Source: Synechococcus sp. CBW1108
GTDB taxonomy: Bacteria > Cyanobacteriota > Cyanobacteriia > PCC-6307 > Cyanobiaceae
Reading direction: 5' to 3'
DNA length: 64,000 nt
Assembly (NCBI RefSeq): GCF_015840335.1
Contig: NZ_CP060395.1
Span: 744,001 to 808,000 of the forward strand
Positions 2,551-51,699 of the stretch are shown here, piece by piece. The notes under the pieces were generated by a model. It searched no databases. It saw only the letters and a list, made by a program, of their open reading frames with translations, and was not told where the DNA came from. A program made the translations under genes and the position numbers. Each line of letters opens with the position of its first letter. Within the stretch, counting starts at the first letter, position 1.

Positions 2551-3182
2551 GCGGCGGGGTCGTCAAGGCCGATGAGGGGCCCCTCGCCCTGTTCGGCACC
2601 AGCGCCGACCCACCCACCCGCGGCCACCAGGTCCTTCTGGAGGGCCTAGTCCAGTCCTATCCCGAAGTGGCCACCTGGGCCAGCGACAACCCGCTCAAGC
2701 AGCACGGCGCGAGCCTGGAACAGCGTTCAGCCCTGCTGGGACAGCTGGTGGCCGCCATCGGCAACCCCCGGCTCAGCCACCGGCAGGAGTTGAGCAGCCC
2801 CTGGGCAATCTCCACCCTGCAACGGGCCGCAGCTGCCTGGCCAGGCCGCGAACTGGTGTTTGTGGTCGGCAGCGACCTGGCCCCCCAGATCCCCTCCTGG
2901 AAGCAGGTCGAGGCCGTTTTGGATCGCTGCGTGCTGGCGATCGCCCCCAGGGCCGGCTGGCCCCTGCAGCCGGGCTGCCTGGAGCAGCTGGAAGGGCTCG
3001 GCGGGCGGGTAGTGATCCTTGGCCTGCAAGTGCCCGCCAGCGCCAGCTCGGCCCTGCGCCAGAACCCCGATCCAAGCCAGATTCCGGCCAGCCTGCTGCC
3101 CCTACTGCTCGAGCACAATCTCTACGGCCTGGGCGATCCGAGCCTCACCCGCCACTCCACCAGCCACTCCACCAGCCCCTGA
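2547..3182 (+). CDS. nadD: nicotinate-nucleotide adenylyltransferase (NadD-type)
   Basis: The 211-residue product adenylylates nicotinic acid mononucleotide to deamido-NAD, the step before NadE. The nucleotidyltransferase signature is near the N-terminus as FGTSADPPTRGH (the family pattern is GxFDPxHxGH), and the C-terminal SSxxR phosphate-binding motif appears as ASSALRQ. The signature departs from E. coli NadD (FD to SAD, and Thr-Arg before Gly-His), as is seen in cyanobacterial NadD. The ATG at 2547 overlaps the GTPase stop. The stop TGA at 3180-3182 shares its last base with the ATG of nadE, so the two enzymes of one pathway are coupled in translation. Confidence 0.86.
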   Translation: MSGGVVKADEGPLALFGTSADPPTRGHQVLLEGLVQSYPEVATWASDNPLKQHGASLEQRSALLGQLVAAIGNPRLSHRQELSSPWAISTLQRAAAAWPGRELVFVVGSDLAPQIPSWKQVEAVLDRCVLAIAPRAGWPLQPGCLEQLEGLGGRVVILGLQVPASASSALRQNPDPSQIPASLLPLLLEHNLYGLGDPSLTRHSTSHSTSP

Positions 3183-4906
3183 TGCGCCTCGCCCTGGCCC
3201 AACTCAATCCGCTGGTGGGGGATCTGGCGGGCAACGGCAAGCTAATCCTGGCCGCCTGCCACCAGGCCGCCGCCCAGGGGGCCGATCTGGCGCTCACCCC
3301 CGAACTCTCCCTCTGGGGCTACCCCCCGCGGGACCTGCTGCTACGCCCCAGCCTGATCGCCAAGCAGGGCGTCGTGCTCGACCAGCTGGCCGCCGCCCTC
3401 GCCCGGGAGCTGCCCCGGCTGGCCGTGCTGGTGGGCATGGCCGAGCCCTCCGGCGCGGCGCCGTTGCCCAACCTTTTCAACGCGGTGGCCCTGGTGGAAG
3501 CCGGCAGCTGGCGCGTGGTGGCCCGCAAAAGGCTGCTACCCACCTATGACGTCTTCGACGAGCAGCGCTACTTCTGCGCCGCCACCGGGCCCAGCGTGCT
3601 GGAGCTTGAACGGGGCGGCCGGAGCTGGCGCCTGGGGCTAACGATCTGCGAAGACCTCTGGGTTGAGGAGGAACTGCAGGGCCACCGCCTGGCTGGTGCC
3701 GATCCCGTCGCCGACCTGCTCTCAAGCCGCATCGACCTGCTGCTCAACCTCTCGGCATCCCCGTTCGGCCAGGCCAAGGTGGCCCTGCGCCAGAGCCTGG
3801 CCGCTCGGGCCGCCGCCCGGCTGGGCTGCCCGGTGGTGTACGTGAATCAGGTGGGCGGCAACGACGAGCTGGTGTTCGACGGTGCCAGCTTCGTTCTGGC
3901 TGCCACAGGTGGGGGCGAAGCCGACAGCAAAGTGGTGTGCCAGCTGGCCTGCAGCCGCGTCCTGGTGGCCTGCTGGGATGGTCGCGGCGAGGCCAGCTGC
4001 CCTTCCCCCGCCCAGCTGCCCGAACCGCTCGAGCAGCTGTTTCGGGCCCTGGTGCTGGGGGTGGCCGACTACGCCCGCAAATGCGGCTTCCAGCAGGCCC
4101 TGCTGGGCCTCAGCGGCGGCATCGATTCGGCCCTGGTGGCGGTGATCGCCGCCGCTGCCCTGGGGGGCGCTCGGGTGCGGGCGCTGCTGATGCCCTCACC
4201 CTGGAGTTCGGAGGGCTCCCTGCGCGATGCCAGGGCCCTGGCGGCTCGCCTGGGGCTGGGCAGCCACACCGCCGCCATCGCTCCGCTGATGGCCAGCTTC
4301 GACACCACCCTCACCCCGGTGCTCGGCGGCCCACCAGGGGGCCTCAGTGCCGAAAACCTGCAGTCGCGCATCCGCGGCACCCTGTTGATGGCCGTGGCCA
4401 ACCAGCAGGGCCAGCTGCTGCTCTCCACCGGCAACAAGAGCGAGCTGGCCGTGGGCTACTGCACCCTCTATGGCGACATGAACGGTGGCCTGGCCGTGAT
4501 CGGCGACCTCTACAAGACCCAGGTCTTCGCCCTCTGCGCCTGGCTCGATTCGACCGCAGCAGGCCCCTGTCGCCGCGAGCTGGGGCTGCCGGAGGACGGC
4601 GAGCTGGTGGGGCGGGCAATCCGCGAGAAACCCCCTAGCGCCGAGCTGCGGCCAGACCAGCTCGACAGCGATTCCCTGCCCGACTACGCCGTGCTGGATC
4701 CAATCCTGAAGGACTACATCGAAGCCCTGCGCAGCCCGGAGGAGCTGGTTGCCAGCGGCACCCCTGCGGAGCTGGCCCATCGGGTGATGCAGCTGCTGCG
4801 CCGGGCCGAATTCAAACGGCGCCAAGCCCCACCCCTGCTCAAGATCGGGGCGCGGGCCTTCGGTAGCGGCTGGCGGATGCCGATCGCCGCCGCCAACCTG
4901 GAGTGA
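3182..4906 (+). CDS. nadE: glutamine-dependent NAD+ synthetase
   Basis: The 574-residue protein amidates deamido-NAD to NAD+ using ammonia from glutamine. The N-terminal nitrilase-fold glutaminase domain shows its Glu-Lys-Cys triad: TPELSLWGYPP (E41), ARKRLLPTYDVF (about residue 116) and LTICEDLW (about 154). The C-terminal synthetase domain has the PP-loop LSGGIDSALVA near 310 and the LLSTGNKSELAVGYCTLYGD block, followed by DLYKTQVF. The length suits the two-domain form. It begins on the last base of the nadD stop codon, giving a direct nadD-nadE operon. Confidence 0.95.
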   Translation: MRLALAQLNPLVGDLAGNGKLILAACHQAAAQGADLALTPELSLWGYPPRDLLLRPSLIAKQGVVLDQLAAALARELPRLAVLVGMAEPSGAAPLPNLFNAVALVEAGSWRVVARKRLLPTYDVFDEQRYFCAATGPSVLELERGGRSWRLGLTICEDLWVEEELQGHRLAGADPVADLLSSRIDLLLNLSASPFGQAKVALRQSLAARAAARLGCPVVYVNQVGGNDELVFDGASFVLAATGGGEADSKVVCQLACSRVLVACWDGRGEASCPSPAQLPEPLEQLFRALVLGVADYARKCGFQQALLGLSGGIDSALVAVIAAAALGGARVRALLMPSPWSSEGSLRDARALAARLGLGSHTAAIAPLMASFDTTLTPVLGGPPGGLSAENLQSRIRGTLLMAVANQQGQLLLSTGNKSELAVGYCTLYGDMNGGLAVIGDLYKTQVFALCAWLDSTAAGPCRRELGLPEDGELVGRAIREKPPSAELRPDQLDSDSLPDYAVLDPILKDYIEALRSPEELVASGTPAELAHRVMQLLRRAEFKRRQAPPLLKIGARAFGSGWRMPIAAANLE

Positions 4907-4924
4907 CGACCCAGCAGCTGAACC

Positions 4925-6079
4925 ATGGCAGCCCCCAGCCAAAGCGCCGCGAGCCTCACCGCGCCGATGGCCAGCATCGGTGTTCCGGCTGAGATCAAGC
5001 GCGATGAGCAGCGTGTAGCCCTCACCCCCGACGCCGTGCGCGAGCTGGTGGGCCAGGGCATGGACGTCAGAATCCAGGCAGGAGCTGGCCTGGGGGCAGG
5101 CTTCAGCGACGACCAGTTCGGCGCTGCCGGGGGCCGCCTGGTGAATGCCGAAGAGGCCTGGGCCGCCCACCTGGTGGTCAAGGTCAAGGAGCCCCAACCA
5201 GAGGAATTCGCCTTCCTGCGCCCCGACCTGTTGCTGTTCACCTACCTGCACCTGGCGGCCTATCAGGATGTGGGCCGGGCCCTGCTGGCGGCCGGCACCA
5301 CGGCGGTGGCCTACGAAACCGTCCAGCTCGAAGACGGCAGCTTGCCCCTGCTGGCGCCGATGAGCGAAATCGCAGGCCGGCTGGCGGCCCAGGTGGGAGC
5401 CCACCTGCTGGAGAAGCCCCACGGCGGGCGCGGCATCCTGCTGGGCGGCTGCACCGGCGTAAAGCCGGCCCGGGTGCTGGTGCTGGGGGCGGGCAGCGTC
5501 GGCTGGAATGCGGCCCGGATCGCCGCTGCGATGGATGGGGAGGTGTACCTGCTGGATCGCTCACCGCAGAAATTACGCAGCCTCGACACCTATCGCCAGG
5601 GCCGACTGGTCAGCCTGATCAGCAGCCCCAGCCTGATCGAGCATCTGGTGCCGGAAACCGACCTGCTGATCGGCGCCGTGCTCACCGCCGGCGGCCGCGC
5701 CCCCACGCTGGTGAGCGAAGAACTGGTGCGGCAAATGCGGCCGGGCTCGGTGGTGGTGGATGTGGCCATCGATCAGGGCGGCTGCATCGCCACCAGCCAG
5801 GAGACCACCCACACCGATCCGGTCCACAGCCTGCACGGCGTGCAGCATTACGCCGTCGGCAACATGCCCGGTGCCGTGCCCTTCACCTCCACTGAGGCGC
5901 TGGTGAGCGTCACCCTGCCCTACATCCTGGCCATCGCAGGACGGGGCCTGGTGGAAGCCCTCACCGATCGCCCCGAACTGGTTTCCGGCCTCAACACCAT
6001 CGATGGTTCCGTATGCCATCCCAGCGTGGCCAGGGCCCTGGGAGTGGCCAACCGCCACCCGATGGCCTGCCTGCGCTGA
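4925..6079 (+). CDS. ald: alanine dehydrogenase
   Basis: NAD-dependent alanine dehydrogenase interconverts L-alanine and pyruvate plus ammonium. Family landmarks are the N-terminal IGVPAEIKRDEQRVALTP, substrate-site Lys in VKVKEPQPEEF and His in FTYLHLAAY. The Rossmann motif VLGAGSVGWNAA lies near residue 190, and the late SVVVDVAIDQGGC and VGNMPGAVP blocks are present. From the ATG at 4925 it has 384 residues. A second ATG at 4967 would give 370, the common family length, starting right before the conserved IGVP, and is a credible alternative. It lies 18 bases after nadE, so it could share that transcript. Its last 89 bases overlap the convergent DUF3326 gene. Confidence 0.93.
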   Translation: MAAPSQSAASLTAPMASIGVPAEIKRDEQRVALTPDAVRELVGQGMDVRIQAGAGLGAGFSDDQFGAAGGRLVNAEEAWAAHLVVKVKEPQPEEFAFLRPDLLLFTYLHLAAYQDVGRALLAAGTTAVAYETVQLEDGSLPLLAPMSEIAGRLAAQVGAHLLEKPHGGRGILLGGCTGVKPARVLVLGAGSVGWNAARIAAAMDGEVYLLDRSPQKLRSLDTYRQGRLVSLISSPSLIEHLVPETDLLIGAVLTAGGRAPTLVSEELVRQMRPGSVVVDVAIDQGGCIATSQETTHTDPVHSLHGVQHYAVGNMPGAVPFTSTEALVSVTLPYILAIAGRGLVEALTDRPELVSGLNTIDGSVCHPSVARALGVANRHPMACLR

Positions 6080-7366: not shown

Positions 7367-7716
7367 TTCTGGTATTGGCCAAACTGGGCTTCGTAGAGGG
7401 CATCCTCCTGGCCGGCCTTCAGGTGCAGATCGGACTGGGGCAAGGAGACACAGAGCAGGGCATAGCCCTGCTGCTGCAGCTCAAGCTTGACGCCCATGGC
7501 GTCCGCCTGCAGCACGGTGCCCTCAGTGATCAGGGCCGCACAGGTGGTGCAGACCCCCGAACAGCAGGAACTGGGCAGGGGCACCCCAGCCGCCTCTGCC
7601 GCCGCCAGCACGGTCTGGTCGCTGCGACAGGGGAAGGTATGGGTGATGCCATCGAGATTGGCCTGGATCTCAAAGGTGGGGGTTGCACTCACCGAATTGA
7701 CTTGCTTTGAAATCAT
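7363..7716 (-). CDS. [2Fe-2S] plant-type ferredoxin
   Basis: The 117-residue protein has the beta-grasp ferredoxin layout. The iron-sulfur loop PSSCCSGVCTTC supplies three cysteines in the CxxxxCxxC pattern, and a fourth is in YALLCVSLP about 30 residues on. A charged N-terminal stretch of about 15 residues precedes the fold. It ends in EAQFGQYQK, not the acidic EEELY-like end of photosynthetic PetF, and the loop has an extra adjacent Cys (SSCC), so it is probably a specialised ferredoxin and not the main photosystem I acceptor. It heads an operon with the 70-codon gene and DUF3326, and starts 47 bases after the upstream secreted-protein gene ends. Confidence 0.88.
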   Translation of the reverse strand: MISKQVNSVSATPTFEIQANLDGITHTFPCRSDQTVLAAAEAAGVPLPSSCCSGVCTTCAALITEGTVLQADAMGVKLELQQQGYALLCVSLPQSDLHLKAGQEDALYEAQFGQYQK

Positions 7717-7763
7717 ATTGGCTGAACGCGAGCCAGAGGTTGAAATTTGCTCACCCCTTGCAG

Positions 7764-8483
7764 TCAGGATTCAGATTCCAGCCCAGGCTGGGACTTAGTG
7801 GGGTAGTGAGCTTTCAGGCTGCTACTGGAGGCCATTCGCTTGCGTAGACGGCGGCTCCAGCCGAAGGCAGCGGCAATACCAAGCAGGGGCAGAGGGCCTG
7901 GAACATCCGCAGGCCCAGGAGCCGCGGTAGGCCCATTGAAGCTGCTGATCGTTGTGATTCCGGCGCCGCCCATAGAATCAGTGCTGTACTGCCTAAAGCC
8001 AAACACATCTCCTGTACCCACAGCAAAACTTGTTGAACCAGCCTGAATTAATGCCCCTAAGTCATCAGTGAGCTGCGTAAAAGCTCCATTCAATAGATAG
8101 GCAAAAGGATCATAAGTTGGATCAATGTCGGAAGTAGAATAAGACCAGTTGAAACTTACGGTTCCCGCGCTGGGTGCTGTGATAGTGAAATCCGTGTCTT
8201 GAGTAGCGCTTGCAACCCCTCCATCGGCGCTCGTTAAGGTAACGCTGTTTGGAGCGCTACTTGTGTCAATGGAGCCGTTGCCCTGAATTTGGGTCCAGTT
8301 GGCTGGGGCGTAGTAACCAGCAAACTGGGTTAAGGCTTGGGCTGGGGTGGCCGCAAGGCCAAGGGCTGCGCCAGCAAGGGCGATCGGAGCAAGCAGCCTG
8401 GCCAAGCGCGCTGGCTTGCCGCAGGGCTGGCTCAGGTTGGAGGCTTCTGGAAAAGCCTGGAAGGCGGAGTGGTGCTTCGGCAA
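7764..8483 (-). CDS. secreted protein with PEP-CTERM-like C-terminal sorting signal
   Basis: The 239-residue protein has a signal peptide: basic RLARLL, a hydrophobic APIALAGAALGLA core, and an AQA cleavage site near residue 50. A long N-terminal leader precedes it, so the true start may be an internal codon. The mature part is rich in Thr, Ser and Gly with few charges, like a beta-sandwich surface domain. Near the end it has VPGPLPLLG, a short hydrophobic AAAFGW segment and the basic SRRLRKR cluster. This three-part arrangement is that of PEP-CTERM-type sorting signals; the VPGPLP variant is familiar from Synechococcus-like proteins. About 22 further residues follow, which is unusual because the basic cluster normally ends the protein. 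The function is unknown. Confidence 0.75.
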   Translation of the reverse strand: MPKHHSAFQAFPEASNLSQPCGKPARLARLLAPIALAGAALGLAATPAQALTQFAGYYAPANWTQIQGNGSIDTSSAPNSVTLTSADGGVASATQDTDFTITAPSAGTVSFNWSYSTSDIDPTYDPFAYLLNGAFTQLTDDLGALIQAGSTSFAVGTGDVFGFRQYSTDSMGGAGITTISSFNGPTAAPGPADVPGPLPLLGIAAAFGWSRRLRKRMASSSSLKAHYPTKSQPGLESES

Positions 8484-8850
8484 TTGCGACCAGCAGCCTA
8501 AAGGGCTTCAAGCATTGACTTCCCGATCTAGAATTGTCAAGCCCCCAGCCCAGATTCTGTCTTGAACAGACAGCGGCCTGTCTTCGTATGCCACCCGTCG
8601 TGCAAAGGGGGTGATGCTGCCAGAACAGAGCTGGCCCCTCATCAGATGGAAGAGCAGCTGCAGCGGCTGAATCGTTCCGAATGGGCCAGCCGATCTCCCG
8701 ACAGCTACCCGGCAGGACGCCTGGGGCACATACCAGCAGACTGCAAAAGGGCAAACCCATACCGTGCAGTCTTGTAGGACTTTGGACTGCTTGGTTCCCA
8801 GGGCCTCGGAACCGCCGCGCTGAGATCCTGGGCCCTATGCAGCCTTGGGG
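8484..8850. other. 367-base gene-free stretch with two adjacent hairpins
   Basis: This region lies upstream of the secreted-protein gene and downstream of the oxygenase gene, both on the minus strand. I see no convincing coding sequence; short open frames on the plus strand have no family features. Two neighbouring inverted repeats are visible: GCAGTC (8766-8771) with GACTGC (8785-8790), and GGTTCC (8793-8798) with GGAACC (8808-8813). Neither is followed by a T-run on the minus strand, so they are not textbook terminators, though they could stabilise or end the oxygenase transcript. Confidence 0.5.
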
Positions 8851-9639
8851 TTACCAAGTCACCGCCAACCAATCAGCCGGATGGGGCGCCAGGTATTCAG
8901 CAGAGCTGGCCAGTGATCTCTCCGCCGTTATTGCAGCTTGCAGCGCTGGCGGGGCGGTGAGCACCAGATCCATGCTGATCGAGAAGCGTCTGTCCTCGGG
9001 GTCCTCGTTCTCCAGAACCGCGTGATCGACGCTGGCTGGAAACAACACCAACAAGCCCGCCCGCGGCGCCAGATCAAACCAGGGCGCATTCCACTGGGCC
9101 ATGGCTGGGGTGCCTGGCCGAATCGGCCCCCCATGGCCCACCGCCAGGCCTGGCACGAGCTCGTTTAGCTGCTGCGGGGGGTAGAGCCGCAGACAGCCAC
9201 CGCGCCCACTGCCATCGCCATTGAGGTAGTACACCGCGCTGAGATGGGCATTGGGGTGGTGGTGGCGGCCCACTACCTGGCCCAGCTCACTCACCACAGG
9301 CCAGCAGCGCTGTATGTGCAGGCAGATCCGATCGAGCCCGAAGCCAAGGGCCTCCAGATAGCCCGCGGCATGGCCTGCGATTGCGGTGACCAGAGGCGCA
9401 AAGAGCGGCTGGTTATGCAGCTGCCACACCCCGTTGAGATCGCCGGTCCAGGCACAGCCAGGATCAGGATTGCTGGCGGCGCCGCCCCGCAGGGCCAGCA
9501 GGGCCTGCAGCTGGGCAGCCAGCTCGAGCGGGTCTGGGCGCAGCTGAACCTGACCGAGGGCCACCGGGAACAGGGGCTGGATCACCAGCGATCCAGGGGC
9601 AGGCAAAGGCGGGGGCATGGCGATTGGAGAAGGATTCAT
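8851..9639 (-). CDS. putative 2-oxoglutarate/Fe(II)-dependent oxygenase (TIGR02466-like)
   Basis: The 262-residue protein has the layout of the TIGR02466 group of 2OG-Fe(II) oxygenases. HHHPNAHLSAVYYLNGD carries the first iron ligand region, and SVDHAVLENEDPEDRRFSIS carries the distal His and the 2-oxoglutarate-binding Arg followed by the S-I-S strand. GLLVLFPASVDH matches the conserved 'l.lFPs.l.H.v' strand. Family members are predicted hydroxylases with mostly unknown substrates, some in phage-like contexts. The ATG at 9639 overlaps the stop of the PIN-domain remnant by four bases, so its translation may depend on that broken gene. The second iron ligand, Asp or Glu in HxD/E, is replaced by Asn in the visible HPN; I cannot tell whether this impairs activity. 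Confidence 0.75.
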   Translation of the reverse strand: MNPSPIAMPPPLPAPGSLVIQPLFPVALGQVQLRPDPLELAAQLQALLALRGGAASNPDPGCAWTGDLNGVWQLHNQPLFAPLVTAIAGHAAGYLEALGFGLDRICLHIQRCWPVVSELGQVVGRHHHPNAHLSAVYYLNGDGSGRGGCLRLYPPQQLNELVPGLAVGHGGPIRPGTPAMAQWNAPWFDLAPRAGLLVLFPASVDHAVLENEDPEDRRFSISMDLVLTAPPALQAAITAERSLASSAEYLAPHPADWLAVTW

Positions 9640-9827
9640 CCTGATGGCGCATGGGCGGCGCTTAGAAGGTCCATCGCCGCCAGAGTGATGCCAAGTCGCT
9701 GCAGCTCAGCCGCCAGGATGGCCGAAAGGCTGCAGCGCTCTTGCGCAAACCATTGATCAAGCTGGGAAGAGCGACGCTCCAACAGCATGCGCATCGCATT
9801 TGTGTCGAGCATGAAGCGTTGCTTCAT
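9636..9827 (-). pseudogene. VapC-like PIN-domain toxin remnant with internal deletion
   Basis: From the ATG at 9827 the 63-codon frame reads MKQRFMLDTNAMRMLLERR, the classic PIN-domain first strand with its catalytic Asp (LDTN). LSAILAAELQ follows, which is the second conserved acidic region (SAITxAEL). It then jumps to GITLAAMDLLSAAHAPSG, which matches the late VapC block (usually 'pIG..DlliAAHAla'). About 60 residues between these blocks and the final strand are missing, so the third and fourth acidic residues are lost or out of place. VapC proteins are ribonuclease toxins of about 130 residues; this one cannot fold normally. No antitoxin gene is visible upstream. Its TGA overlaps the oxygenase ATG. 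Confidence 0.68.
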
Positions 9828-10025
9828 GGGCACAGTATGTGCAGCAACGACGATGGGACCCAGCGTAAGTCGACTTAACTGCTCAACCAGCACCACAACC
9901 ACCTGGTCGATGGTGTGGATACTGGATTCACTGCGCTCGAGCAGCTGGGAATTTGGTGGCCCGGGATCGCTTCCAAGATGCCTATCGCCCTAAGCGACGC
10001 CGCCTACCCAGCTACTAGCTGAAGC

Positions 10026-17042: not shown

Positions 17043-17184
17043 GGCGGCATCGGCGGCTACATGCCGAGCTTTTCACGGCCGCCCACCCCCAGGCTCAGGA
17101 GCTCCGGCTGCAAACATTTGTTCAAGGCCGGGCTGGGCCCAATGGGCCAGCCGTAACGTGACCAAACCCGGTTCGCTCCTGTCA

Positions 17185-19536
17185 ATGACCGTGACCGCCA
17201 GCAGCGGCAGCACCAGGGTTGCCGCCCAGCGCTACGACACCCTGCCGCTTTCCAGCGTTCGTCAGGCGGAGCAACAGGACCGCTTCCCCGACGGCGGGGA
17301 GCTTGAAACGCTGAAGGCGTTTTACCAGAGTGGCCAGCAGCGCTTAGAAGCTGCACGCCGCATCTCTAAAAACGCTGATTTCATCGTGGCCAAGGCGGCC
17401 AACCGGATCTTCTCCGGCGGCACGCCGCTCTCCTACCTCGACGCGCCGCTGAGCACCTCCGGCCCCAGCGCCAGCGACGCCACCCCCTTGGCCGCTGACC
17501 AGGCCGCCTTCCAGCGTTCGGTGCAGACCTTCGCCCAGGGCACCGGCAACTCCAGCGGCAACCTAATCACACGCTTACTCGAAAGCACAGGTGGCGACGC
17601 CGATGTAAGGGTTGTGCTGCCCACCGGCTTCAGCCCGATTGCCGTGGGCCGTTACGGCACCGATCGGATGCGCAAGTCGCTGCGCGACATGGGCTGGTTC
17701 CTCCGCTATGTGGGCTACGCCCTGGTGGCAGGAGACCCCAGCATCCTGGCCGTGAACACCCGCGGCCTGCGCGACATATTGGAGAAGGCTTGCTCCTTGG
17801 CGGCTACCAATGTGGCCCTGCAGGAAATGCGCGCCGCAGCCGCCGGCCTCTGCAAAGACAACCCCCAGGCACGCGAGCTGGTGATCCAGTACTTCAACGT
17901 GCTGCTCGCCGAACTGCAGGTGGCCACTCCAAGCACCCGGCAGCGCCTCGGCAGCCCTGAAAGTCAGGGCCTCCAACTGCCTGCCATTTATGCCCTAGCC
18001 GCTGACGGTAAGCAGCGCTTCATCATGCGGCCGCGCCTAAGTGGTGCCCAAAAGGCCGAAGTGATTCGGGCCGCCTACCGCCAGGTGTTCGAGCGCGACA
18101 TCGCCAAGGCCTACAGCCAGACGCCCTGCCCGGTCGAAGCCACCCAGGTGCGTCAGGGCCAGCTGTCGATGCGGGAATTCATTCGCTCCCTCGGCCACAG
18201 CAAGGAATATCGCCAGCAGTTTTTCGGCCGCTTCTCCAATAGCCGGGCGGTTGAGCTGGCCTTCCGCCACTTCCTCGGTCGCGGCATCAGCTCACGTGAG
18301 GAATTTACCCGCTACTTCGACATCGTCAGCGTCCAAGGCCTGAATGGCCTAGTGGATTCCCTGATCAACACCCAGGAATACGCCAGGGTGTTTGGCGAGG
18401 AAACCGTGCCCTATCTGCGCGATCTCGGTGAAGAAGCCCAGGAGAGTGCCGGCTGGGGATCAAACCGCAAGCTGTTCCGCTTCAGCGCTCCCTTTGAAGG
18501 TGCGCCCCAGTACGTCACCCTTTACGCCTCCTATCGCCAACCCTTCGCAGATCAGCATGTCTACGGCGGGGGTAACGATCCCCTGGCCCTCAACTACGGC
18601 GCGATTTTCCCTTCCGGCACCGCTTCGGTGGCCACCAGGCCCGCCCCCTATGGCTACGACAGCCGCCGCATCCTGATCGGCAATGGCCTGGCCCAGCCTG
18701 GCCAGATGGACAGCGTCCAGTTCCGCAAGGCCACTCCCCGCCGAGTGGGTCCCAAGGTTGTGCGGCTCCAGCAGATTGCAACCGGCGGCAGCTCCGTGCC
18801 CCGCCGCGGCGGCCAACCCAGCATTCGTGGCACTGAAGCCAGCACCCAGGCAGTTATTAATGCGGTCTATGTGCAAGTTTTAGGCACTGCTGGCTATGCC
18901 GGAGAGCGCAATAAAGTTGAGGAAATCAAGCTCGAGAACGGCGATATCAGCCTGCGAGAGTTTATCCGCCAGGTCGCCCGTTCCAAGGCCTTCCGCCGCC
19001 GGTATTGGAGCGGCCTTTACATCACCAAGGCCATCGAGGTGATCCATCGCCGGCTGCTAGGTCGCCCAACCTTCGGGCGATGGGAAATTGACGGCTACTT
19101 CGATACCGCAGCCCGCACCGGCTTCTATGGGGTAGTCGACGGGATTCTCAACAGCAGCGAATACAACGAAACCTATGGCGAAGACACAGTCCCCTACGAG
19201 CGTTTTGTCACCGCTACTGATCGAAATGCCCGCAAGGTGCCCGGCCTCAACCGCCCCTTCGACGCATCTTCCTATGCCAATGAATTTGCCCAGGACAAAC
19301 GTCCAAACGTGCCCGTTGATCAGACCATACGCACTACCGGGGATATAACCAATCGAAATTTGTCGGCGCGCCGGCAGATTGTCGTGGGGAGCTGGACAGC
19401 CCAGACCGTCGGAGGCGAAACCATGAAGGCATCTCAGCCCCAAGACAACTTCACCCCGGGACCAGGCAGCATCCGTCAAGCACCTGCACCGAGTCGCCGC
19501 TGGAAGCAGACCCCTATGTCCAGCAACGCCCTCTGA
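17185..19536 (+). CDS. apcE: phycobilisome core-membrane linker ApcE (LCM), two REP domains
   Basis: ApcE nucleates the allophycocyanin core, binds it to the thylakoid and acts as terminal emitter. The ATG at 17185 (MTVTASSGSTRVAAQRYDT) matches the family start. The 783-residue product has an alpha-APC-like domain (about 20-240) interrupted by the PB-loop (about 77-145) and the chromophore Cys203 in LEKACSLAATNVAL. REP linker 1 is at about 296-415 and REP linker 2 at about 556-676, ending DTVPYERFV. They are joined by an arm (415-553) with RRILIG and VGPKVVRLQQI. A tail of about 107 residues follows. Two REPs is fewer than the three of tricylindrical cores; a decayed REP lies just downstream (19709-19969). 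There is no terminator directly after the stop. Confidence 0.95.
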   Translation: MTVTASSGSTRVAAQRYDTLPLSSVRQAEQQDRFPDGGELETLKAFYQSGQQRLEAARRISKNADFIVAKAANRIFSGGTPLSYLDAPLSTSGPSASDATPLAADQAAFQRSVQTFAQGTGNSSGNLITRLLESTGGDADVRVVLPTGFSPIAVGRYGTDRMRKSLRDMGWFLRYVGYALVAGDPSILAVNTRGLRDILEKACSLAATNVALQEMRAAAAGLCKDNPQARELVIQYFNVLLAELQVATPSTRQRLGSPESQGLQLPAIYALAADGKQRFIMRPRLSGAQKAEVIRAAYRQVFERDIAKAYSQTPCPVEATQVRQGQLSMREFIRSLGHSKEYRQQFFGRFSNSRAVELAFRHFLGRGISSREEFTRYFDIVSVQGLNGLVDSLINTQEYARVFGEETVPYLRDLGEEAQESAGWGSNRKLFRFSAPFEGAPQYVTLYASYRQPFADQHVYGGGNDPLALNYGAIFPSGTASVATRPAPYGYDSRRILIGNGLAQPGQMDSVQFRKATPRRVGPKVVRLQQIATGGSSVPRRGGQPSIRGTEASTQAVINAVYVQVLGTAGYAGERNKVEEIKLENGDISLREFIRQVARSKAFRRRYWSGLYITKAIEVIHRRLLGRPTFGRWEIDGYFDTAARTGFYGVVDGILNSSEYNETYGEDTVPYERFVTATDRNARKVPGLNRPFDASSYANEFAQDKRPNVPVDQTIRTTGDITNRNLSARRQIVVGSWTAQTVGGETMKASQPQDNFTPGPGSIRQAPAPSRRWKQTPMSSNAL

Positions 19537-19708
19537 AGCCTCAGCACAGCCTGCCGCTGTGGAGCTGATAAACTGCTCGAAAGCACATAGGGTTTGTCAA
19601 CCGGCCAGGCGCCACCATGGTGAGCCAGATTCATACAGGATTACCCCAAGGGCAAAGCCGCCGCCAAAGCGTGGGGCGCCTTGCTTAGCCTGAACGCACC
19701 AGTAGTGA

Positions 19709-19969
19709 AACCCAGTGCAACAAGAGCTGGAAAGCGTCTACAAGTATCTGCTAAATAGAATCACTGTTGCTGAATAGCCCATAGGAAACATCTAATTCCA
19801 ATTACACAACCAGCAACTCACGGTGGAGGAGCTGGTTAGCAAAGTAGCTGGCAACGAACATTTCCAACGACGCCTGAACCGCATGGCACCCCTACGCACT
19901 GCTTCATCGGACTATCTCGCCCTGCTCGGTCGAGCTCCCCAACTCGATGAGGTGAGCGCATTCCCGTGA
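19709..19969 (+). pseudogene. apcE (remnant): decayed phycobilisome linker (REP) domain, probable third REP of ApcE
   Basis: Read in one frame, this stretch gives ELESVYKYLLNR, then QLTVEELVSKVAGNEHF, RRLNRMAPLRTASSDYLALLGR and APQLDEVSAF. These are the ordered blocks of a PBS_linker_poly (REP) domain: helix with Y..LLNR, 'lrng.ltv.efv..va.s..f', then 'r....l...lLGRa....E'. The frame contains TAG at 19775 and TAA at 19793 and ends at TGA 19967, so only about 70% of a domain remains and it cannot be expressed whole. It is in a different frame from apcE. Its position directly after apcE, which has two REPs and a long tail, suggests it is the lost third REP. It might instead be a fragment of another linker gene. 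Confidence 0.72.
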
Positions 19970-20012
19970 TCACGGTGATCCGCACCCGAAGATTGCGTTC
20001 CTAGCCCAAAAA

Positions 20013-20208
20013 CCCCTCCCGGAGACACTTCAGGCGAAGGAGGGGGATGATTCATGACAACAATTGTCGCAAAAGTTGAGCCGAAAGTCGAAACAAGTGG
20101 GGCGGTTAGCGGAGCAAAATGATGAATAATTGCTACGCCAAGCCGCTGTCGCCAAAATTGAACAAAGCCATTGCGCCGCAGCGGGTTCTCCTAACACAAG
20201 CGCCGTGA
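20013..20208 (+). promoter_or_regulatory. apcA leader: hairpin over a strong RBS plus two chained mini-ORFs
   Basis: CCCCTCC (20013-20019) can pair with GGAGGGG (20039-20045). The right arm overlaps an AAGGAGGGGG purine run that is an ideal Shine-Dalgarno for the ATG at 20054. That ATG opens a 22-codon frame ending at TGA 20120-20122, which overlaps (ATGA) the ATG at 20119 of a 29-codon frame ending at 20208. Neither peptide resembles a known protein. On the minus strand the same stem is followed by TTTTT, so it may simply be a minus-strand terminator. Leader function is inference. Confidence 0.3.
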
Positions 20209-20345
20209 AGAACTGTTACCGCCAAGGGGGCGGTGATTGGGCTTTGCCGCAGAATGATTAGGTGATCGGCGCAAGTCGATCCATTCCCTTACCCACCGGA
20301 TATCGGTCTCCTTCAAGGCGGCCGCTTGTTTCGAGGCAGAACTGC

Positions 20346-20831
20346 ATGAGCATCGTCTCCAACTCGATCATCAACGCGGATGCGGAAGCCCGCTATCTCA
20401 GCCCTGGTGAACTCGACCAGATCAAGTCCTTCGTGGCCGCTGGTCAACGTCGTATTCGGGTCGCCCAGGTTCTAGGCGAAAGCCGCGAGCGCATCGTCAA
20501 AACCGCTGGTGGCGCGCTGTTTCAGCGGCGTCCCGACGTGATTTCTCCCGGCGGAAACGCGTACGGCGAGGAGATGACCGCTTCGTGTCTTCGCGACATG
20601 GACTACTACCTGCGCTTGGTGACCTACGGGATTATCGCCGGCGATGTAACACCCATCGAAGAGGTTGGAATCATCGGAGCGAAGGAGATGTATCGCTCGC
20701 TCGGGACTCCCCTCGATGCCATGGCGGAATCCGTGCGTGAAATGAAGTCGGCTGCCATGGGCCTACTCACCGGCTCTGACGCCGAGGAAGCTGGCTTCTA
20801 CTTCGACTACGTCATTGGCGCCCTCTCCTAA
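20346..20831 (+). CDS. apcA: allophycocyanin alpha subunit
   Basis: The 161-residue phycobiliprotein binds one phycocyanobilin and assembles with ApcB into the APC trimers of the phycobilisome core. The ATG at 20346 ([20 protein letters not shown]) is the canonical start. The chromophore Cys is residue 81 in [20 protein letters not shown], and [21 protein letters not shown] is a typical APC-alpha block. The length is exactly that of the family. It lies 42 bases before apcB; a purine-rich GAGGCA precedes the start. It is expected to be highly expressed. Confidence 0.98.
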
Positions 20832-28973: not shown

Positions 28974-29441
28974 TCAAGCGCCTGGACGGTGGTACGGCCC
29001 GCCCTGCTGGATCGAGCGGGCCCGGTAAAGCTGCTCGAGCAGCAGTAGCCGCGCCAACTCATGGGGGAAGGTCAGGGGCGAGAGGCTCAGGCGCCAGCTG
29101 GCCCGCGCCTTGAGCGTCGGATCGAGGCCAGCGGCACCGCCGATCACAAAAGCCAGCTGCTCGGAGCCGGATCCCTCCAGTGCCTGGGCGAAGGCCAGCG
29201 AGTCATAGGTCTGGCCCTCTTCGCACAGGGCCACCAGCTGCTCACCCCGGCGCAGCTCGGAGCTGATCGCCTCGGCTTCGCGGGCCAGGCCGCCATCGCG
29301 CAGCTCAACTATCTCCAGCCCTGGCAAGCGCCTGCGATATAGCTCCACCCCCTCGCTCACCCAGCCCTTGCGCACCTTGCCCACCGCCAGGATGCGGATG
29401 CGGGCGGGGTTGATCAAGGGCGAAGCCGGCGCAGCATTCAA
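28974..29441 (-). CDS. rlmH: 23S rRNA (pseudouridine1915-N3)-methyltransferase RlmH
   Basis: The 155-residue SPOUT methyltransferase modifies helix 69 of 23S r[23 protein letters not shown] is the conserved beginning; [12 protein letters not shown] gives the knot SAM-binding loop, and [24 protein letters not shown] with PYHRPGA forms the conserved end. The start is uncertain. TTG at 29441 gives family length, while an ATG at 29507 would overlap the helicase end by 32 bases and add 22 unrelated residues. It lies downstream of the helicase on the same strand. Confidence 0.9.
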
Positions 29442-29475
29442 CCTACTGTCGAAGCAACGCCATTCATGCCGAAGC

Positions 29476-32232
29476 TCAACCCCCAGGATCCCCAGGCGGC
29501 CTGGCAATCGCCGCCGGCGCCTTGGGCAACAGATCCTCGATCTCGCAAACCGGGAAGCGGTTGATCGCCTTGAGGGCGGCCCGGGCGTTGTTGCGCAGCT
29601 GCTGGCTGATCGCTTCGCAGTAGGGCACCTGGGCCAGCAGATCCACGGTGCGGCGCAGGATCCTCACCACATCCCCCTCATCGAGGGAGGTGTTGGCGAT
29701 CATGTCGCTCCAGCTGGCCCCTTTGGCCCAGGCGTCAACCAGGCCGGTGAGTTCTGGCTCCCACCAGAGCGGGAAGGTCACCTTGGCCCCCTCCTGCTGG
29801 CGCTCCAGCTCCCGGCGCAGGCCGCGCAGGGCGTGCAGGGCCTCCTCCACCGCCGGGGGCGGTGGATAACCACTCCAGAGATCGGGCCGGCTCACCTCGG
29901 TGGAGATCGCCTCAAACACCGCCGCCAGCTGGGGCGGATCGAGCTCGTCGAGGTGGCCGCTCATCAGGGCCAGGCCCAGCCACAGCTCGTTGTCGCCGCG
30001 CAGGGCCGCCACAGTGCGGCCCACCTCGGTGGGCTCTAGACCCTCGGGGCCGGCCAGGGCACCGAAGTGTCGCAGCACCTCGATCAGGGCCAGGAAGGTT
30101 TCCCAGTGCCTGTTCGACCTGAAGTGCAGCAACTGCTGGCGCTCGCCAATCTCAACCTGGAGCTCCTCCATCCGGCGGCGGTGCTTTGTCAGCTGGCGGC
30201 GGTCGCCCCAGCGGTGGGCCGGATGCAGCTCGAGCCGCTCCTCCAGCTGATCTACGAGCTGGGCCTGGGCCCGCACCTCACCGGCCAGGTCGTACTGGGG
30301 GGTGGCCATGTCGTGGCGGCTGGCCATCGAGGCCACCGCCAGGGCCAGGCCGCCACTGGCCTGGTCGCCATGGCGGATCTCACCGGCGTGGCCTAGCTCG
30401 GGGGCATCCACCTGGCCCACCTGCAGGCAGCTGAGCTCGGCATGCAGGCTCACGACCCCCTGGCAGGGCAGCAACACCCAGAGGTTCTCATCGGTGAGGC
30501 ACTTGAGCAGGGGGAACTGACCGGGCCCCTTCACCTTCTCCACAATCACTGCCGGCGTCACCCGGCCGCGCAACTGGGGCGCCTTCAGGCTCACCAGGCT
30601 GCCCTCGCTGGCAAATTGCAGCGCCAAGGTGAGCTCGTGGGCGAGGGTTTCCTCGGCTTGCTGCTGCAGGGTCCGCTGGATGCGGCGCTCCTCGCGCAGG
30701 TGAGCCCGCCGCTTTTCGTAGTCTTCAAAATCGTCCCAGGGCACCTCGCCCGAGCCGTCTTCCAGGCCCGCCAGCTGCTGCATCAACTGGGCAATTCGGG
30801 CTTCGTCCTCCACCAGATCCAAGGTGGCCAGGTAGCGGCCAAAGCTGCGCTCCACCAGCTCCCTGGCCTTGGCCAGGGGGTAGCGCTGCAGCAGGTTGAG
30901 CACCATGCCGTAGCTGGGCGTGAACTGGCTCACCAGCGGATCGGCCGGCGCAGTCGCCAGCTGGCCCGCCTCCCGCACCCCCTCAAAGCGGCTCTGCACG
31001 GTCACCACGTAGCCCTGGGAGTCGAGCCCCCGCCGCCCGGCCCGGCCGGCCATCTGCAGGAATTCACTGCCCATCAGCGGCCGGTGGCCCCGCTCGGTGC
31101 GCTTCGATAGTGCAGAGATCACTGTGGTGCGGGCCGGCATGTTGATGCCCGCGGCCAGGGTTTCGGTGGCGAACACCACCTTGATCAGGCCCTGCTGAAA
31201 GAGATCCTCGATAAGTTCCTTCCAGGCCGGCAACACCCCGGCGTGGTGGGAGGCGATGCCCCGCAGCAGGGCTTCGGCATGGCCTCCCTCGCGCACGGCC
31301 TCGGGGGTGGTTGCCACAAACAGATCCAGTCGGGCCTGAATGCGGGCCTGCTCGGCGGGCGTCACCAGAGAGGCCCTGCCCAGCTCCTTGACCCCCTTGT
31401 CGCAGCCGCGGCGACTGAAGATGAAATAGATGGCCGGCAGCATGTCGCGCTCGGCCATCTGGGCCACCACAAAGCCCAGGGGCGGTGCCTCGGGCTGGGG
31501 CGGCTTGGGGATTTTGGGGCCCTTGCGGCGACTGCCCTTGGGAGCCCGCCACACCTTGCAGTTGGGATGGAGACCCGTGCCCTCGTCGTTGAGCAGGGGG
31601 TGCAGGCCCTTGGCGCTGCAGAAGCTGAAGGCCAGGGGCACGGGCCGGTGGTCGCTGTGCACCAGCGAGGTGGGGCCATGCACCCGATTGATCCAGTCGG
31701 TGAGCTGGCCGGCATTGGCCACCGTGGCCGACAGCGCCACCAGCTGAATTGAGGGAGGACAGTGGATGATCGATTCTTCCCACACGGTGCCGCGCTGGGA
31801 ATCATTCATGTAGTGGCACTCGTCGAGCACCACCGCCTCCACGCCCTCCAGCGGGTCATCTCCCGCATCGGCTTCCGCGTAGAGCATGTTGCGGAAGATC
31901 TCGGTGGTCATTACCACCACCTGGGCCTCCCGGTTGAGGCTCATATCACCGGTGAGCAGCCCCACCCTCTCGGCGCCAAACTGCTCGCGGAAATCGCGCA
32001 GCTTCTGGTTGGAGAGCGCCTTCAGCGGCGTGGTGTAAAAAACCTTCTGGCCATGGGCCAGGGCCCGGTAGATGGCGTATTCGCCCACCAGGGTCTTGCC
32101 CGAACCCGTGGGCGCACTCACCACAACCGAATGGCCCTGCTGGAGGGCATCGATCGCCTCCAGCTGGAAATCATCTAGGGGAAAGAGAAAAATTGTAGCC
32201 GGATCGAGCCCGTTGGGCGCCACTTCAGGCAC
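29476..32232 (-). CDS. Ski2/Mtr4-like DExH-box RNA helicase with DSHCT domain
   Basis: The 918-residue superfamily 2 helicase shows motif [15 protein letters not shown] (about 39-52), motif [13 protein letters not shown] (about 137-147), motif [11 protein letters not shown] (about 165) and motif [15 protein letters not shown] (about 392). The C-terminal third has the arch/DSHCT-type helical domain, including [21 protein letters not shown] and [16 protein letters not shown]. Relatives unwind RNA for 3'-5' degradation in eukaryotes and archaea; the cyanobacterial and plastid members (ISE2-like) are linked to RNA processing. The cellular role here is not shown. A short convergent-looking gap separates it from bioF, which is divergent. 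Confidence 0.93.
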
Positions 32233-40978: not shown

Positions 40979-48345
<7,367 letters not shown>

Positions 48346-48408
48346 CGGCTTGGGGCTCGCGGAGTTCGAGAAGGGAGGGGCGGTCAGCGATGCGCTGCAA
48401 ACAAGCAA

Positions 48409-51699
<3,291 letters not shown>

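Follow-up and report, generated by a model that had tools for sequence, protein, structure and literature searches.

The window, a stretch of 64,000 nucleotides from Synechococcus sp. CBW1108 (G000 here; other G and L numbers denote the compared genomes and loci), carries apcE on the forward strand at 17185..19536, ending in the stop TGA at 19534-19536. Its product, ApcE (LCM), has 783 amino acids (784 residues as a query, which started one codon early, at 17182). The extent of the gene follows from a PF00502 match, two PF00427 stretches and alignments of the tail. By its domain content, the protein is a two-REP ApcE, with a PB domain (PF00502) and exactly two PF00427 REP domains. REP1 lies at 18046..18420 and REP2 at 18835..19203, both on the forward strand and both located by PF00427 within the genome itself and by our own profile. 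A tricylindrical ApcE carries three REPs in one polypeptide, whereas only two are present here.

A PF00427 search of the entire genome, a single contig of 3.23 Mb, finds nine stretches: two in apcE, four near 1.94 Mb, two in open reading frames (ORFs) of 255 amino acids, and the relic described below. The clustering of the four near 1.94 Mb suggests that they are rod linkers, and the two 255-residue frames are likely rod-core linkers. One ApcE was found in the genome, and the whole-genome PF00427 search found no extra core REP beyond apcE.

Downstream, the ATG of apcA stands at 20346, leaving an apcE-apcA gap of 809 nt. The preliminary description called this gap otherwise gene-free, which agrees with the ORF list (minimum 40 amino acids), where the longest frame wholly inside the gap has 55. 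An altered terminator occupies 20013..20050 on the forward strand, as seen by alignment, folding and pattern scan. In relatives, the hairpin between apcE and apcA is followed by a T-run and folds at -19.8 kcal/mol, with z about -3. The hairpin of G000 is weaker (-14.3 kcal/mol, no better than shuffled sequences), and the T-run is lost in both G000 and G015. A pattern scan of 19400-20400 found no promoter or terminator, and a regulatory element in the gap was rejected on this empty scan. A plasmid source of the gap was likewise rejected, with no match in a plasmid collection.

A Relic of the Third REP Domain

Directly behind apcE, the preliminary description had read the blocks of a phycobilisome linker domain in a single frame with two stops. 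All of these features are present: the three ordered blocks, TAG at 19775-19777 and TAA at 19793-19795 share one forward frame, which differs from that of apcE. Read through its stops, the frame gives 84 residues that match PF00427 with 30.3 bits (E 4.8e-7), where the curated cut-off is 28.7. The relic is also found at E 2.2e-6 in the whole-genome PF00427 search, and a REP3 profile made from the domains of six sister genomes gives it 104.5 bits. These PF00427, whole-genome and REP3-profile scores rule out a chance match. The copy in G015 reaches 25.6 bits against PF00427, slightly below the cut-off.

The stretch at 19709-19969 is a decayed REP domain, and nucleotide alignment with intact orthologues at the same place in sister genomes confirms the proposal that ApcE's missing third REP lies here. 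The position given at first holds for the decayed domain but falls short of the true extent, since the relic can be aligned with the intact sisters G001 and G004 all the way from the stop of apcE to about 20003. Alignments place a relic of the REP2-REP3 arm at 19537..19714, where deletions of 23, 17 and 1 nt relative to G001 have changed the frame. The 5' two thirds of REP3 follow at 19715..19961, as located by frame reading, PF00427, profile and alignment, and include both stops. TAG 19775 is private to the window genome, and TAA 19793 is common to G015. A 130-nt deletion took away the 3' third of the domain. The word GCAT lies at its junction (19958..19961; the aligner placed the gap after 19966), and G001 has GCAT at both ends of the deleted segment. 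The remains of the C-terminal tail of ApcE, with a further deletion of 40 nt, run to the old stop site at 19962..20003. All of these parts lie on the forward strand. An open frame continuous with ApcE is therefore lacking, being broken by TGA, TAG, TAA, frameshifts and the 130-nt deletion.

REP3 in Sister Genomes

Among the 16 genomes of the genus, the window genome included, REP3 is intact within the single apcE ORF in 11, and the preliminary suggestion to look in sisters for an intact REP3 in frame with REP2 was borne out. One of the 11, G003, has the 5' part of its apcE on another contig. The relic itself recurs in G015 with 94% identity, and G015 also shares the apcE stop, the TAA and the deletions. 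The other three genomes with a two-REP apcE, G005, G012 and G011, retain about 50 nt of REP3 by nucleotide alignment. A search with the relic as query gave no match in these three, and their vestiges are weak by profile (E 0.04, 0.0013 and 1.5). The states of G015, G005, G012 and G011 come from a tail alignment that took in seven genomes.

The codon that ends apcE is TGA in G000 and G015 and TAA in G011. In six three-REP relatives (G001, G004, G006, G007, G010 and G014), the same codon is TGG. G005 and G012 have lost this codon to a deletion and stop at a TAG nine codons earlier. The junction of their deletion falls on TCCAGCAACGCC, a word present in the arm of G000 and in REP3 of G001, which suggests a deletion between short direct repeats (TCCAGCAACGCC).

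Two other losses were considered as companions of REP3 loss and rejected. The orange carotenoid protein is not lost with REP3, as its N-domain (PF09150) has a match in 16 of 16 genus genomes. Loss of another linker shows no pattern either, with 4-10 PF00427 matches in the three-REP and 5-9 in the two-REP genomes of the genus, relics included.

Loss of Constraint

The relaxed substitution pattern expected of a dead domain is present. Differences between the relic and G001 fall on codon positions 1, 2 and 3 as 17/15/24 (97-99 sites per position, about 98 codons), for which a uniform distribution is not rejected (p 0.30). Intact REP3 domains compared with G001 over 155 codons instead give 19/11/72 (G010), 16/12/76 (G014) and 16/11/78 (G007). 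The pattern of the relic differs from each of these (Fisher p 0.0011, 0.00028 and 0.00013, respectively). The nonsynonymous to synonymous ratio of the relic is 0.60 to G001 and 0.73 to G004 (84 and 87 matched codons), whereas intact pairs give 0.05-0.08 on the same codons. No significant synonymous excess was found in the relic by this matched-codon test against G001 and G004, and the purifying selection that would mark a functional REP3 is therefore not seen. A ratio below 1 is expected if selection acted along part of the path, before REP3 was lost. The relic is dead, and its constraint is relaxed. A comparison of G000 with G015 finds 12 differences over the 457 sites of the relic and 5 over the 355 sites in the remainder of the gap. 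apcE differs at 37 of 2352, with 28 of these differences at third positions.

A Recombinant Block of Cyanobium usitatum Type

Identity, diagnostic sites and trees mark 17300..20720 as a recombinant block of Cyanobium usitatum type, which takes in the relic and the greater part of both apcE and apcA. Across the window, 45 of the 58 1-kb pieces that matched in both genomes are nearer G014 than G001, and 47 of 58 are nearer G014 than G012. This relation is reversed at about 17.3-20.7 kb. At 18 kb, identity is 94-95% to G001, G004, G005 and G012, as against 85-87% to G014, G007, G010 and G006. Diagnostic sites place the switch of type near 17300. Mixing begins near 20720 and is settled by about 21500, so that the right edge of the block is blurred to about that point. 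Of the 86 diagnostic sites between 19504 and the old stop, 62 are of the C. usitatum (G001/G004) type, 11 are of the other and 13 of neither.

The trees of the block and of the rest of the genome disagree. The block tree unites the five two-REP alleles in a single clade beside G001/G004, with support of 98/97 for apcE and 100/99 with apcA. A tree that keeps G000/G015 out of the donor group fails the AU test (p 0.0013 and 1.5e-5). In a joint tree of uvrA, gyrB and rpoB (13 of 16 genomes; G007 lacks uvrA), G000/G015 group with G010, G014 and G007 (92/95). That tree rejects a five-member two-REP clade (AU p 6.6e-8) as well as G000/G015 within the donor group (p 0.010). rpoB alone and uvrA alone agree with the joint tree, and gyrB alone, in a single-gene tree run with a faulty G015 row, puts G000 outside both groups.

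The conflict between the block tree and the three-marker tree argues for import of a truncated allele from the C. usitatum group. Nesting in the block tree points to transfer into the ancestor of G000/G015. Most likely, the truncated allele arose once in the C. usitatum group and was then imported. G005, G012 and G011 do not form one clade on the three markers (AU p 0.001), and the two-REP allele may have moved inside the donor group as well, or the loss may have been repeated there. The preliminary description had placed the loss in the present lineage. Since the truncated apcE sits in a block recombined from a C. usitatum-like donor, the loss most likely did not begin there.

Elsewhere in the window, nine further pieces of the 58 are also nearer G001 than G014, six of them by at most 1 per cent. 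The other three, at 3-5 kb and 29 kb, are clearly nearer G001 (86-88% versus 79-80%, a difference of 6-9), and the patches at 3000-5000 and 29000-30000 may be mixed by recombination too. At 48000-49000, G000 is nearer G014 (92%) than its close sister G015 (88%), possibly another recombination patch. The piece at 8-9 kb has no match in G015 and that at 9-10 kb a poor one (77%), with neighbouring kilobases at 96% or above. A recent insertion or replacement at 7600-10000 is possible.

Origin of the Relic

The stretch 19537-20003 is very probably the pseudogenized REP3, arm and tail of the apcE just upstream, brought in as part of an already shortened C. usitatum-type allele. In an ancestor of the C. 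usitatum group, a TGG codon after REP2 would have become a stop, leaving a two-REP ApcE. The untranslated REP3 stretch would then have collected substitutions and deletions. Homologous recombination over about 3.4 kb would have carried the shortened allele into the common ancestor of G015 and the window genome, bringing along a half-decayed REP3 whose decay was under way. In G005, G012 and G011, the REP3 stretch would later have been deleted almost wholly. Given this near-complete deletion, the window would preserve an earlier stage of decay. An order of nonsense change, decay, import and deletion appears the simplest by parsimony.

The main competitor moves the loss to the recipient: the imported apcE, of C. 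usitatum type, would still have had all three REPs intact, and REP3 would have been lost afterwards, independently of G005, G012 and G011. That G001 and G004 of the donor group still carry REP3, and that arm breaks recur in the family, would suit such a history. It nevertheless appears improbable, because the five two-REP alleles form a single well-supported clade apart from G001/G004 and because the stop in G000/G015 and in G011 is at the same codon. Survival of the relic for a different reason, with the apcE-apcA gap serving as a regulatory leader for apcABC, is more doubtful still. The gap is long and is present in two genomes, yet the two-REP genomes G005 and G012 make do with gaps of 396 and 390 nt, the relic is not better conserved than the rest of the gap between G000 and G015, and the pattern scan was empty.

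Two further explanations have a negligible probability. One takes the relic for the remains of another linker gene (rod or rod-core), as might be suggested by CpcN being the best solved chain for the 84-residue read-through. However, the intact REP3, arm and tail of the sisters align at the same place at the nucleotide level, a synteny that rules out a non-ApcE linker, and the REP3 profile score is high. The other treats the stops and frameshifts as sequencing or assembly errors, of which they are the usual sign. Here, though, the lesions are shared with G015, a second assembly; they include deletions of 130, 40, 23 and 17 nt, and related states occur in three more genomes.

Breaks of ApcE Across the Family

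A family-wide search covered 271 genomes with a completeness of at least 90%. REP3 has a match in 169 of them, and the 149 that remain after removal of 20 with a single weak match were taken as phycobilisome-bearing. Of these 149, 17 have an ApcE with a break between REP2 and REP3; genomes with their REP3 match in a frame of at least 950 amino acids were counted as whole directly from the list. REP3 is decayed or gone in 11 of the 17 (G000, G015, G005, G011, G012, G033, G069, G080, G251, G252 and G259) and lies intact outside the apcE frame in six (G116, G078, G297, G067, G103 and G309). State calls leave out G113 and G105 (contig edge) and G301 and G098 (no apcE at the limit used). Two REPs also occur in several others among the best 80 of 520 confirmed apcE loci from named GTDB genomes.

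A gene tree of 105 alleles comprises 23 broken, 80 whole and 2 cut by contig ends; its added rows were picked as broken or as close relatives of broken ones, so 23 of 103 is no frequency. An earlier gene tree had 89 rows, with 12 duplicate-contig loci and the fragment G003b dropped and 2 contig-edge rows uncounted. On the 105-allele tree, all breaks together require 15 changes, and decay or loss alone 7. Leaving aside five single-lesion cases with an intact REP3 gives 10. Such counts are blind to loss versus gain, and the relics and vestiges mark loss. In draft genomes and metagenome bins, a lone stop may be an error.

Split apcE loci form a separate set of observations. In L283, L284, L285, L286, L287, L288, L161 and L144, the arm is interrupted by a stop or a frameshift, and REP3 follows downstream as an unbroken ORF of its own. 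G067 has four stops in the arm, G103 one stop with REP3 in another frame, and L144 two stops. REP3 is unbroken by sequence in all three (in L144 as far as the contig goes). The dN/dS-like ratio of REP3 relative to the nearest intact relative is 0.12-0.20 in these three and 0.03-0.20 over the split genes. These values fall inside the 5-95% range for intact pairs (0.11-0.35) or beneath it. That control range is rough, and its 79 "intact" rows include L165 and L166 (copies of the split G078 and G309) and repeated contigs. Much of the divergence time behind the ratios of the split genes may predate the split.

In seven of eight split cases, the REP3 ORF has a Met in the motif M..ALRPG.PQG (ALKPG in two, ALRPD in one). 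G309 lacks this Met. It stands 185 codons before the end in six of the seven, and the contig of L144 ends first. Whole genes such as that of G001 have a Met at the same place, and hence it is no proof of a start. G067, G103 and L144 are the best candidates for a free-standing REP3.

These breaks allow a wider proposal, which is possible but somewhat doubtful: the REP2-REP3 arm may be a recurrent breakpoint, with core size lost repeatedly and transmissible by recombination in a 3-kb block, and REP3 may serve before its decay as a split linker of about 185 residues. In such a naturally split ApcE, a REP3 made from a conserved internal Met would persist before decay, and the window would stand near the end of that road. 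ApcE with four REPs was seen in L195, L196, L198, L202, L209 and L210, from further Synechococcus genomes and bins, so core size would vary upwards too. The bin of G003 contains another apcE 3' end that differs from the first and includes REP3 (L075, G003:C327), perhaps a contamination.

Core Architecture

The number of cylinders in a phycobilisome core is taken to follow the REP count of ApcE. With one REP per allophycocyanin hexamer and two copies of ApcE per core, the core of this organism would be expected to have two cylinders instead of three. The closest known kind appears to be the two-REP ApcE of bicylindrical phycobilisomes. The nearest solved chain of like length is the 705-residue ApcE of 9wg7/9x69, which we take to be the two-REP ApcE of the bicylindrical phycobilisome of Synechococcus elongatus. 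Residues 2-710 of the 784-residue query align to 1-702 of this chain in one continuous alignment, and the protein of the window has two REPs. Unlike that protein, the present one would derive from a three-REP gene whose lost domain can still be read and whose allele was imported. The reference list of PMC12525769 cites a preprint with the S. elongatus bicylindrical phycobilisome in its title.

With the three-REP ApcE of picocyanobacteria, the window shares the locus apcE-A-B-C, orthologous REP1 and REP2 domains, and the arm and tail sequence. It differs from it in that REP3 is dead. Two REPs are also not among the states given in an excerpt of PMC2246261, where the marine Synechococcus studied have three, except CC9311 and RS9916 with four. 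The word "apcE" is absent from the main text of PMC9361551, which deals with freshwater picocyanobacterial isolates. Among the titles and abstract openings listed, a scope that leaves most subscription journals outside, nothing was found on picocyanobacteria that have lost REP3, keep a relic of apcE or carry a split apcE.

ApcE2, which belongs to far-red light acclimation, is a far-red paralogue. The window's ApcE is like it in having two REPs, which a portion of PMC10810746 takes to support a bicylindrical core in far-red complexes; unlike ApcE2, it is the one ApcE found in its genome. An excerpt of PMC12525769 describes four REPs in each of two ApcE copies that bind within four AP hexamers in Gloeobacter. 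According to a passage of PMC8448738, three REPs make up the LCM of Synechococcus 7002, and the extra half-cylinders in Anabaena require a fourth.

A two-REP ApcE would give a core with two cylinders, a smaller antenna and fewer rod sites. In Synechococcus 7002, four of six rod-core linkers touch the top cylinder (PMC8448738, in the part available), and by analogy fewer rods would be expected here. Close relatives, some of them seemingly cultured strains, differ in REP number with the lost domain in their DNA, and would form a natural experiment on antenna size. The loss suggests a core that has shrunk repeatedly and in parallel.
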